From assembly GCA_016234445.1 (NCBI GenBank), contig JACRBT010000014.1:124001-188000 (forward strand): DNA of 64,000 nt. The letters are read 5' to 3'. Position numbers and translations under genes: made by a program. The stretch comes from Chloroflexota bacterium. Its GTDB lineage: Bacteria > Chloroflexota > Dehalococcoidia > Tepidiformales > Tepidiformaceae. A model generated the notes under the pieces. The model searched no databases and was not told the origin of the DNA. It saw only the letters and a list, made by a program, of their open reading frames with translations. This document shows, piece by piece, positions 36,778 to 43,269 of the stretch; within the stretch, counting starts at the first letter, position 1; the number at the start of each line of letters is the position of its first letter.

Positions 36778-36969
36778 CTATTCTCGGCTGGCGGCCGCTC
36801 GCTCCACACGGGGCCGGGGGGCGATCGCCGCCACCACCGCCGCGGCCGGGGCCGCCGCCGGGGGAAGGTAGAGGAGCTCCCCGCAGAGGCCGCAAAGCAT
36901 CCGGCCGGGCAGTGGCAGGGGGCGGCCTTCGAAGACGCGCTGGTGTTCTTCCTCGGGGTGAGGGCACAT
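36778..36969 (-). CDS. Small zinc-ribbon-like protein (63 aa)
   Basis: ATG 36969. The N-terminal half has MCPHPEEEHQRVF and MLCGLCGELLYLPPA; Cys2, His4 and the CGLCG pair form a C-x-H ... C-x-x-C arrangement that could hold one zinc ion. An Ala/Pro-rich hydrophobic stretch and a basic tail follow. It ends 5 nt before the next gene on the same strand. There is no clear ribosome site. Small single zinc ribbons often mediate protein or nucleic-acid contacts; no more specific role can be given. Confidence 0.5.
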   Translation of the reverse strand: MCPHPEEEHQRVFEGRPLPLPGRMLCGLCGELLYLPPAAAPAAAVVAAIAPRPRVERAAASRE

Positions 36970-37042
36970 GCCGCCAGCCTTGGCCCTTCGCCCGGGAGCC
37001 CAAATCCCCTGGTGTCACTCCCCGCCATCGTCCCCGGCGGCG

Positions 37043-40142: not shown

Positions 40143-40338
40143 GTCGTTCGCTCCCTTCGATCATGACAAGCCGGGAGCGGCAACCCCCGTGCGGCGTCGA
40201 GTATGCCGAAGAGCAAAGAGGAATACAAGTAGTCTATGTGAGCAATTGAACAAGCGGATTGATGCCGCGCCAACAGCCCCTCTGAGCTCGCCCGCCGCAC
40301 CCCGGACAGTCGCTCCACACCCTTCCCGGAGCTTCGCC

Positions 40339-41658
40339 ATGACCACTGCCCGCCGCCGGCCGGAACCGCCCTTCCCCGTCACCCTCCAGCGCATGGACGA
40401 AGACCGCCTCCGCCGCTACCGCGACAACCTCGACTTCTACGAAGGCCGCCAGTGGCAGGGCCGTGCCCGCCGGGGCGAACGCCGCCTCACCTTCAACTAT
40501 GCCCGCGCCTTCGTCGACAAGATCACCAGCTACCTTCTCGAAGGCGCCTCGATCCAGGTCGAAGCCCGCGACGGCGACTCCCCCGAAGGCCGCGCCCGCG
40601 CCCGCGCCGCCGAGACCGCCCTCCGCGAAGTCGAATCCGCAAACGGCCTCGCCCAGCTCGACTTCGAGACCGAGCTCGATTGCGCCGTCCTCGGCGACGC
40701 CGCCTACCGCGTGACCTGGGACGCGGCCGACGGCACCGTCCGGGTCACCGCTCCCGACGTCCAGGGCATCTTCGCCTGGCGCGTCCCCGATGACCCCGCC
40801 CGGGTGGTGACGGTCGCCAGCCAGTACCGCGTCGGCGACGCCTCACCCTCGGGGGCGCCCGGCGGCGAGTCGCTGGTCACCGAGCGCTGGACCGTGGACA
40901 GCTACGAATCCTGGCAGGGCAACGACCTCGTCCAGCAGGCGCCCAACCCCTACGGCTTCGTCCCCTTCGTCCTTTTCCCGAACGTGCGCGAGCCGAAACA
41001 GACCTGGGGCGCGAGCGACGTCCCCGCGCTGGTGCCCTCCAGCCGCGAACTGAACCGCGCCTACAGCCAGCTGAGCCAGATCCTCGAACTCTCCGGCAAC
41101 CCGATCGCCGTGCTCGAAGGGGTGAACGGCTCCCAGGACATCGCCGTCGAGCCCGGCGCGGTCTGGGAAGTGCCCGAGAACGCCAAGGCCTACCTCCTCG
41201 ACCTCCTCAAGGGTGGCGGCGTCGCCCTCCATCGCGACTACATTGACCTCATCTACCGGACGCTCCACGACCTCGGCGAATCGCCGCGGACCGCTTTCGG
41301 GCACAACCCCCAGGGCCTGAGCGGCATCGCCCTCAACACCGAACTCGACCCGCTGGCGAAGAAGGTCGCCCGCAAGCGGCTCATCCGGACGACCGTCTAC
41401 GAACGCCGCTCGGGGCTGATCCTCCGGCTGCTCGCCCGGTACACCGGCCTCGACATCGAAGGCCTCCGCCCGGTCATGCACTGGGGTCCCGTCCTTCCCG
41501 TGGATCGCTCCCGGCAGGTCGCCGACGAGCGGACACTGGTGCAGGCGGGCATCACCTCGCGGCGCACGGCCGCCGCCCATCTCGGCGCCGACGATCCGGA
41601 AGCGGAGTGGGCGCGCGTCCAGGAGGAGGGCGGCGCGGGGGTCGCGGCGGGAAAGTAA
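40339..41658 (+). CDS. Phage portal protein (SPP1 Gp6-like)
   Basis: 439 residues from ATG 40339 with GGAG 7 nt upstream. Portal proteins form the dodecameric DNA gate of tailed-phage heads. Visible family blocks: RYRDNLDFYEGRQWQGRARR at the N-terminus, RLTFNYARAFVDKITSYLLE, VPALVPSSRELNRAYSQLSQ, and a stem-like ISRRTAAAHLGADDPEAEW near the C-terminus. No terminase, capsid, protease or tail gene flanks it, which is odd for a prophage. Three tightly coupled unknown genes follow. Codon use is like the host genes, so the insertion is old or the gene is domesticated. Confidence 0.88.
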   Translation: MTTARRRPEPPFPVTLQRMDEDRLRRYRDNLDFYEGRQWQGRARRGERRLTFNYARAFVDKITSYLLEGASIQVEARDGDSPEGRARARAAETALREVESANGLAQLDFETELDCAVLGDAAYRVTWDAADGTVRVTAPDVQGIFAWRVPDDPARVVTVASQYRVGDASPSGAPGGESLVTERWTVDSYESWQGNDLVQQAPNPYGFVPFVLFPNVREPKQTWGASDVPALVPSSRELNRAYSQLSQILELSGNPIAVLEGVNGSQDIAVEPGAVWEVPENAKAYLLDLLKGGGVALHRDYIDLIYRTLHDLGESPRTAFGHNPQGLSGIALNTELDPLAKKVARKRLIRTTVYERRSGLILRLLARYTGLDIEGLRPVMHWGPVLPVDRSRQVADERTLVQAGITSRRTAAAHLGADDPEAEWARVQEEGGAGVAAGK

Positions 41659-41911
41659 AGGTGTCACAGAAAAATACCCGCCGGTCGGTAACCTTTGAGC
41701 AGACATAAACGTTTGTATCTGTGAAGCCGGGGCGCTCCCCGGAGGCCGGGCCACATCCCCGGCCCCATCCCAACAATCAGGTGTCCCACGCGGTCCAGAT
41801 ACGGAGTTCGTCCTATGCCGAGGGTCTTCACTTTTCCTCAACGATTGCCGTATTAGATTCTAGACATAGACGCGAGGCCCACTGACCCGAGCCGAACGCC
41901 TGGAGGTCGCC
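41659..41911. other. AT-richer intergenic region in the portal island
   Basis: 253 bp without a supported gene. An inverted repeat TCACAGA (41664-41670) / TCTGTGA (41718-41724) brackets an AT-rich core with AAACGTTT. Further right, CCGTATTAGATTCTAGACAT (about 41846-41865) is the most promoter-like part and precedes the gene at 41912. Confidence 0.45.
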
Positions 41912-42331
41912 ATGAGCGAACCAGCCACCAGCGTTATCTTCACCGCCGACGAACTCTGGCTCCTGCAGTCCGTGATTCGCCACGAAATGGCTCAGCCCGA
42001 GCAATGGAAGGCCCCGCCTGTCAGCGCCTCCCTCAACGACCAGGTCGCTGAAGCGCTCGTCCTCTGCCACGACCACGACCAGGCCGAAGCCGCCGTCCTT
42101 CTCAGCATTGCCGATTGCCTCGCCATCGACTTCTGCGTCCCCCAGGCCGCGAAGTCGCCGGCGGGGCTGCCCATCGGCAAGCAGGTCCTGTTGAAGTCGT
42201 TCCGGGCGCGCTCGGAGATCGCGAGCCGCTGGGCGCCGTCGAACGCCGAACCCGAAGCCCCTTCGCACGACGAACTGCTCACGAAGCTGGACCAATGGAA
42301 ACGCCGCCGCCGCGGCAAGAGGAGTGCCTGA
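41912..42331 (+). CDS. Hypothetical protein of the portal island
   Basis: 139 residues from ATG 41912 with GGAGG 5 nt upstream. It is helical: TADELWLLQSVIRHEMAQPE, LNDQVAEALVLCHDHDQAEA, AVLLSIADCLAIDFCVPQAA, ending in KRRRRGKRSA. The basic tail could bind nucleic acid. It is followed by TGA-G-ATG coupling to the 46-codon gene. I recognise no family. The same coupling recurs at the next junction, so the last three genes form one translational unit. Confidence 0.65.
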   Translation: MSEPATSVIFTADELWLLQSVIRHEMAQPEQWKAPPVSASLNDQVAEALVLCHDHDQAEAAVLLSIADCLAIDFCVPQAAKSPAGLPIGKQVLLKSFRARSEIASRWAPSNAEPEAPSHDELLTKLDQWKRRRRGKRSA

Positions 42332-42332
42332 G

Positions 42333-42473
42333 ATGCCCGCACCCACCACCACCCCCGTCGTCACCCCCACCACGAACCCGAACGAGTCGCCCTGGCCCGA
42401 ACGCTACACCGACCCGGCCCGCATCTGCCCGCAGCAGCGGCGCGAAGGGGCCTCGCCGGACGTGGAGCCTTGA
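42333..42473 (+). CDS. Small Thr/Pro-rich protein of the portal island (46 aa)
   Basis: ATG 42333 one base after the preceding TGA, with GAGGAG about 9 nt upstream. The peptide is Pro/Thr-rich (MPAPTTTPVVTPTTNPNESP), then WPERYTDPARICPQQRREGA, and likely disordered. The strong ribosome site and TGA-G-ATG coupling on both sides support translation. No family recognised. Confidence 0.5.
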   Translation: MPAPTTTPVVTPTTNPNESPWPERYTDPARICPQQRREGASPDVEP

Positions 42474-42474
42474 G

Positions 42475-43269
42475 ATGGCCGCCTTCTGGTCCGAACACGC
42501 CTACGACCCCGGCCAGGACCGAACGGCAGAGGGCCCCCGGCCGCTCGCGGACCGCGTAGTCAACCGCTTCGACCCCGCCGGCATCGACGCCAGCCCCGGA
42601 CGCCGCCTGCGCGCCTTCGCCGCCCTGATTTGCCGCGGCGAATGCGGCATCGTCCTCGCCCCCACGGCCCGCGGCGAGCAGCTCCTCGTCTGGCCCGACC
42701 GCGACGTGACCTACGGCGAGCTTCTCGGCCTCGTCCAACGCGACCCCGACCTCGGCCGGCTCCGCGGCGCCCTCTCCGAGCTCCCCCTCCGGATCGGCGA
42801 CTACGGTCCCCTGATCCGGGACTTGCCGGAGTCGCCCCAGCGGTCGAACCGCGACCCGGACCTCCATTCGGCCCTCCAGGACCTCGGCGACGAGATCAAC
42901 GAAGACATCCGCGAGGCCCTCGAATCGCTCGACAACCCCCACGCCTGGTACCCCGGCATCGACCAGGGCATCGACCCCGTGACCGACGACCACGTCCGGC
43001 TCGTCATCTGGGCGCTCCAGCGCGAACTCGACCGCGAGCTCCGCACCGGTTCCGGCAGCATGTCGTCGCTTTCGCCGCTGCCGGCCGCGCCGCTGAGCGA
43101 GCTCCCCTGGGACGTCCAGCGCGCCCTGGCCGAGCGCCGCCGCTGGCGCTACCGCCAGTGGGGCCTGGGCCGCGACCAGTGGGAGAAGGGCCTCTGGAAC
43201 CTCTGGGAAGTCCCCGCCGACCCGGACTACGTCCCCCGCCGCTCGGCCCGCCTGACCGCCGCGGCATAG
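42475..43269 (+). CDS. Hypothetical protein of the portal island
   Basis: 264 residues from ATG 42475, one base after the TGA of the small gene. The N-terminal half has MAAFWSEHAYDPGQDRTAEG, LRAFAALICRGECGIVLAPT and GEQLLVWPDRDVTYGELLGL; the middle is acidic and helical (LHSALQDLGDEINEDIREAL, DDHVRLVIWALQRELDREL). The C-terminus is Trp/Arg-rich (RRRWRYRQWGLGRDQWEKGL). No catalytic or membrane motif. It closes the portal island; the next gene belongs to normal chromosomal metabolism. Confidence 0.65.
   Translation: MAAFWSEHAYDPGQDRTAEGPRPLADRVVNRFDPAGIDASPGRRLRAFAALICRGECGIVLAPTARGEQLLVWPDRDVTYGELLGLVQRDPDLGRLRGALSELPLRIGDYGPLIRDLPESPQRSNRDPDLHSALQDLGDEINEDIREALESLDNPHAWYPGIDQGIDPVTDDHVRLVIWALQRELDRELRTGSGSMSSLSPLPAAPLSELPWDVQRALAERRRWRYRQWGLGRDQWEKGLWNLWEVPADPDYVPRRSARLTAAA

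Follow-up and report, generated by a model that had tools for sequence, protein, structure and literature searches.

A solitary portal protein gene in a Tepidiformaceae genome probably belongs to a dispersed, SOS-linked gene-transfer-agent-like system

What is a phage portal protein gene doing by itself in a genome of the Dehalococcoidia? The question is raised by a stretch of 64,000 nucleotides, here termed the window, which is part of contig C1 of a Chloroflexota genome of 3.54 Mb (family Tepidiformaceae). An initial annotation described an SPP1-type portal gene of 439 aa without terminase, capsid or tail neighbours, and the Pfam and PHROGs matches and the open reading frames of the window agree with that description:

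40339..41658, + strand: portal protein gene of the SPP1/phrog_64 type, 439 aa, identified by Pfam and PHROGs matches

No terminase, capsid or tail genes were found beside it within the window. The protein belongs to the SPP1-type portal family (PF05133, phrog_64), as its Pfam match (SPP1_portal, 3e-15) is full length (residues 21–431) and above the cut-off (56.5 bits versus 25.5), and the PHROGs match is to the phrog_64 portal (2.8e-29). The predicted fold resembles phage portals with moderate confidence (pLDDT 62). The portal of the window's family differs from the SPP1-type family at large in having no adjoining terminase, capsid or tail gene. Relatives are present in 45 of the 61 sampled genomes of the class Dehalococcoidia, with identities mostly of 66–80% within the window's family and about 50–65% in the other families of the class, and the named relatives are mostly Dehalococcoidia of the Chloroflexota, including Tepidiforma. 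Most genomes have one copy, and in several the gene is reported as two pieces. In most genomes of the window's family the portal stands without other particle genes beside it and its neighbours vary from genus to genus; the gene for a ~690-aa protein, described below, lies about 2.6 kb from the portal in G010 and adjoins it in G015. A strain-specific remnant under relaxed selection is contradicted by the presence of the gene in 45 of 61 genomes and by portal dN/dS values of 0.06–0.16 (within-genus pairs tested). The portal gene at 40339–41658 is real, full length and single copy, and is no stray remnant.

Three genes follow the portal, and it had been proposed that all four form one system:

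41912..42331, + strand: 139-aa gene, opening a three-gene module distinct from the particle genes; module together in 8 family genomes
42333..42473, + strand: 46-aa gene, C-terminal half nearly invariant (TDPARICPQQRREGASPDV); 67–85% identity in seven relatives
42475..43269, + strand: 264-aa gene, third of the separate module; found in 9 of 61 genomes, outside the window's genome on contigs other than that of the portal

The three reading frames and their two identical TGA-G-ATG junctions are as first described, and the genes are kept together in 8 family genomes (loci L299–L305), the 46-aa protein, which has no family match, being the most conserved. However, the synteny comparison speaks against the four-gene system: in the other seven of these 8 genomes the module sits on different contigs from the portal. 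Most of the 45 portal-bearing genomes are without the module. Judged from its placement across these genomes, the module is a separate conserved unit that lies beside the portal by chance, outside the particle system. The 253-bp gap after the portal had been taken as a control region. It is indeed AT-richer (58% GC versus 69%) and holds the inverted repeat TCACAGA/TCTGTGA (at 41664 and 41718). The repeat was rejected as a control element since it is within chance expectation (4 inverted 7-mers versus a mean of 2.0 in shuffles) and is not conserved upstream of the corresponding gene in relatives.

Profiles of five further proteins, a large terminase (TerL), an HK97-type capsid, an SU10-type adaptor, the ~690-aa protein and a Cys/HTH protein termed c3, were searched in the window's genome and each was found once, while a scaffold homologue was recognized behind the motif described below:

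C14:38337-39656: TerL (large terminase), profile search of the window's genome
C1:71098-71364: c3 (Cys/HTH protein), profile search of the window's genome
C1:202350-202952: adaptor, SU10-type, profile search of the window's genome
C9:41478-43547: ~690-aa tail-like protein, profile search of the window's genome
C9:56857-57732: capsid, HK97-type, profile search of the window's genome
C1:59948-60316: scaffold homologue, behind the motif in a scan of the genome's own DNA

The particle genes of this genome are spread over three contigs (C1, C9 and C14), with the terminase and capsid genes, which the initial annotation had suggested looking for elsewhere in the genome, on C14 and C9, respectively. 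The existence of these partners supports its suggestion of a gene-transfer-agent (GTA)-type or domesticated locus. In G057 (locus L166) a single cluster contains TerL, portal, scaffold, capsid, an SU10-type adaptor, a 668-aa protein and an amidase. Elsewhere in the class, in other families, the large terminase, c3 and two small genes accompany the portal, and in Sphaerobacter it is found with terminase, capsid and tail-like genes. Sphaerobacter metagenome-assembled genomes (loci L052, L053 and L057) carry a compact cluster of related portal, terminase, capsid, tail-like, minor-head and amidase genes.

The packaging enzyme appears intact: RQxGKN is kept in 17 of 17 TerL sequences, all have DEAQD or DEAQE, and the C-terminal DD is conserved. 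The ~690-aa protein is only tentatively tail-like. Structure prediction from a two-sequence alignment was poor (pLDDT 33), so its assignment rests on gene order; its profile gave one marginal match against the PDB and showed no resemblance to the Sphaerobacter tail candidate. Scanning of the cluster proteins showed no contractile tail genes. The c3 protein has four conserved cysteines and a C-terminal HTH, with weak similarity to late transcriptional activators. Phage-type head, packaging and, tentatively, tail genes are hence present and intact, as expected of a GTA.

Six genes (portal, TerL, capsid, adaptor, ~690-aa protein and c3) were tracked across the genomes. The five partners are largely in the same genomes as the portal and almost always single copy. 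Of the 37 genomes that are at least 90% complete, 7 carry no more than one of the six genes and 30 carry four to six; 5 genomes have none, compared with 0.008 expected if the genes were independent, a statistic that ignores shared ancestry. The complete chromosomes of G012, G029 and G032 belong to one genus; in them the six genes extend over 211, 225 and 254 kb, respectively, with ordinary genes standing between them. These spans are much tighter than random placement would give (P about 1e-5 to 6e-5, for three chromosomes of one genus), and in all three chromosomes they are too wide for any one packageable unit, which is expected of a GTA.

Protein distances of the six genes follow those of RpoB (G031, with an incomplete RpoB sequence, was left out). 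Mantel correlations over all genomes were 0.86 for portal, 0.87 for TerL and 0.62 for capsid; within the family they were 0.72, 0.90 and 0.96, respectively, with 0.84 for adaptor, 0.81 for the ~690-aa protein and 0.69 for c3. The distances of the six genes also correlate with one another (r of 0.42–0.81). LexA was tried as a species marker and set aside, as it gave weak correlations in too few genomes. All six genes have dN/dS below 1 in within-genus pairs, with TerL reaching 0.57–0.69 in some Tepidiforma pairs, although the GC richness and codon bias of these genes may have led to underestimated dS. The RpoB correlations and dN/dS values together indicate the vertical inheritance and purifying selection expected of a GTA.

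A putative promoter motif, GTGMC-N7-TTGGAG-N17-CACGCT, precedes most of the particle genes. Its fuller form, GTGMC(A/G)-N7-YTTGGAGCTG-N~13-CCACGCT, is found upstream of the adaptor, ~690-aa protein, capsid, portal and TerL genes, often 6–7 nt before the ATG in the adaptor and ~690-aa genes. Scans used plain patterns, which were judged specific enough. All 16 matches to the strict pattern in 1.22 Mb of family DNA are at particle genes, and nine whole genomes yielded 31 matches compared with 4 for a reversed control. The 31 sort into 19 known particle genes, 6 new candidates, 4 ImuB-like gene starts and 2 unclear cases. Because the pattern was defined on known particle genes, only the newly found genes provide independent support. 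Among the new candidates are an M23 peptidase, two small membrane proteins (G012 and G029) that look holin-like by eye, a protein that is peptidoglycan-hydrolase-like by eye and has no Pfam match, a TerS-like protein (named from its gene position and inspection by eye) that has homologues across many genomes of the family, and a Cys-rich protein with a homologue in the window at 36778–36969. Four Tepidiforma genomes have a match where an ImuB-like gene begins, and this was taken as a coding coincidence. The ImuB-like gene with a motif match (a Y-family polymerase; L242, L244 and L262) is itself likely to be DNA-damage related.

Within the window the motif is associated with three features:

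40267..40307, + strand: weak motif match upstream of the portal, GCGCCA-N7-CTCTGAGCTC-N11-CCCGGAC, score 14.5
36976..37018, - strand: strong motif, GTGACA-CCAGGGG-ATTTGGGCTC-N13-CAAGGCT, score 17, ending 6 nt before ATG
36778..36969, - strand: 63-aa Cys-rich protein encoded about 3.4 kb away from the portal gene; candidate for a second regulon member within the window

The portal score of 14.5 is not significant alone, as 24% of random 153-bp pieces reach at least 14. The motif is strong before the portal of several relatives (for example, G012, G029, G032 and G023); several TerL genes, along with some others, have weak matches. By comparison, a score of 17 is reached by 0.27% of random 153-bp pieces, and the match at 36976..37018 is the only one of at least 16.5 in the window. 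A homologue of the 63-aa protein (53% over 43 aa) lies directly behind the same motif at G017:C2:1407503.

A second element suggests a link between the set and DNA damage. In 12 of 14 genomes the LexA-type box GAACN4GTTC stands upstream of c3, compared with a background of 0.5% per 150 bp, and it occurs in 2 of 81 regions upstream of the other five genes. It also precedes lexA in most genomes, including that of the window. As no regulator other than c3 was found in the particle set, c3 is a candidate activator of the motif-bearing genes, and the particle genes probably share both a promoter motif and a DNA-damage switch.

We propose that the portal is probably one gene of a domesticated, dispersed, SOS-linked, podovirus-type GTA-like system under one control circuit. 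What the sequence shows is the genes themselves, co-occurring in near single copy, their vertical inheritance and purifying selection, the motif and the LexA-type box. On DNA damage LexA would be inactivated, c3 would be derepressed, and c3, or a factor under its control, would activate the shared promoter of the terminase, portal, scaffold, capsid, adaptor, tail-like, holin-like and peptidoglycan-hydrolase genes. In this account the particle, packaging and lysis genes have become scattered through at least about 200 kb of the chromosome. A short-tailed particle would be assembled, filled by the terminase with whatever DNA is at hand, and released by lysis. The packaged DNA would have to be mostly that of the host, since the scattered genes are too far apart to fit on any one packaged fragment. 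We infer from the sequence that c3 is the activator and that particles may form, carry host DNA and benefit recipients. The fuller evolutionary account, of a GTA scattered almost to single genes, run as a regulon by SOS, c3 and one motif, conserved in a Chloroflexota family and derived from a cluster that persists in other families, is one that we regard as evenly balanced between right and wrong.

An older prophage whose decaying remnants were rearranged apart and no longer function, which was among the explanations first offered, would account for the separation of the genes and for the broken sets in some genomes. The portal reading frame appears broken in G015, G017 and G005, and in G049 the gene is truncated; G011 retains just a fragment of TerL, with the capsid undetected; and the 97% complete G013 (4 contigs) has kept c3 and lacks the other five genes. 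Some of these broken or missing genes may be assembly errors of draft genomes. Such decay also weighs against the GTA-like reading, as does the failure to detect c3 in a few genomes with the remaining genes (for example, G008, G039 and G054). However, neither relaxed selection nor a patchy, strain-specific occurrence was found, and independent decay would not keep near single-copy genes across the class, RpoB-like divergence, low dN/dS, intact TerL motifs and a common promoter motif. Hence, we consider decay very unlikely. A domesticated particle with a job other than DNA transfer, such as a compartment or a killing particle, for which PBSX provides the precedent (discussed in PMC12946183), is harder to set aside, as gene content is silent on cargo and role, but it too seems unlikely. 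TerL with its ATPase and nuclease motifs, the TerS-like gene and the portal are retained and co-inherited, which suggests that DNA packaging is selected, and contractile tail genes are missing from the cluster proteins scanned.

That the genes are only apparently scattered, and belong to a multi-locus satellite or a replication-competent phage, receives some support from virus-filed contigs. A viral collection contains 382 stretches that encode a portal relative, with identities of 52–59% among the best 80 of the 382, and a number of the portal-bearing viral contigs also carry the capsid. Two of the contigs examined, L405 and L408, have an integrase on the same contig as the related portal. 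Against this reading, the six genes extend over 211–254 kb with ordinary genes between them in complete chromosomes, and an unsystematic look at the family regions inspected recognized no integrase or replication gene in those regions. We therefore regard a satellite or phage as scarcely credible, and return to the dispersed GTA-like system as the preferred explanation. The virus-filed records with a portal or capsid of this group number several hundred (L336–L472). The integrases (L405:6370-7539 and L408:6195-7526) mark contigs that may be living temperate relatives of the dispersed set, while L359 and L362 have host-like genes on their flanks and may represent loci of chromosomes rather than viruses. 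Given the contigs with integrases and those with host flanks, the group seems to include phage-like as well as fixed chromosomal forms.

If the GTA-like interpretation is true, the system represents the far end of phage domestication, in which the host regulatory network, and not linkage, holds the virion together. Lone phage genes in bacteria, which are usually dismissed as remnants, may then belong to working systems. The interpretation is open to testing in cultured Tepidiforma.

Deposited complete phage genomes are much more distant than the relatives within the class (about 50–80%). The nearest are the Streptomyces phage BRock group for the portal, with homologues at 23–28% identity, and Pseudomonas phages for the capsid, with homologues at about 40%. 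In the GTAs of Alphaproteobacteria, RcGTA and CcGTA, most structural genes form a single main cluster, the particle is siphovirus-like and control is of the GafA type. They resemble the present system in vertical inheritance and in having particle genes under host control, putatively so here, with a dedicated activator there and a candidate one here, and they differ in that their genes are in one cluster encoding a siphovirus-like particle, whereas here the genes are scattered and of podovirus type. Most described GTAs come from Alphaproteobacteria, and very few are described from other groups (PMC12946183). In the titles and abstracts of an open-access library we found no account of a GTA in Dehalococcoidia or Chloroflexota, and our findings in these genomes point to a GTA-like system undescribed so far in the Chloroflexota. 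The closest known system is FpGTA of Faecalibacterium, which has, as the present system appears to have, a podovirus-like gene set and no self-transmission unit (PMC12946183). In FpGTA the TerS, TerL, portal, scaffold and capsid genes, with a holin and endolysin at a second locus, form two operons, and particles and packaged host DNA have been demonstrated (PMC12946183). The proposed Chloroflexota system, in comparison, consists mostly of single genes distributed over about 8–9% of the chromosome, most of them behind a copy of one putative promoter motif.
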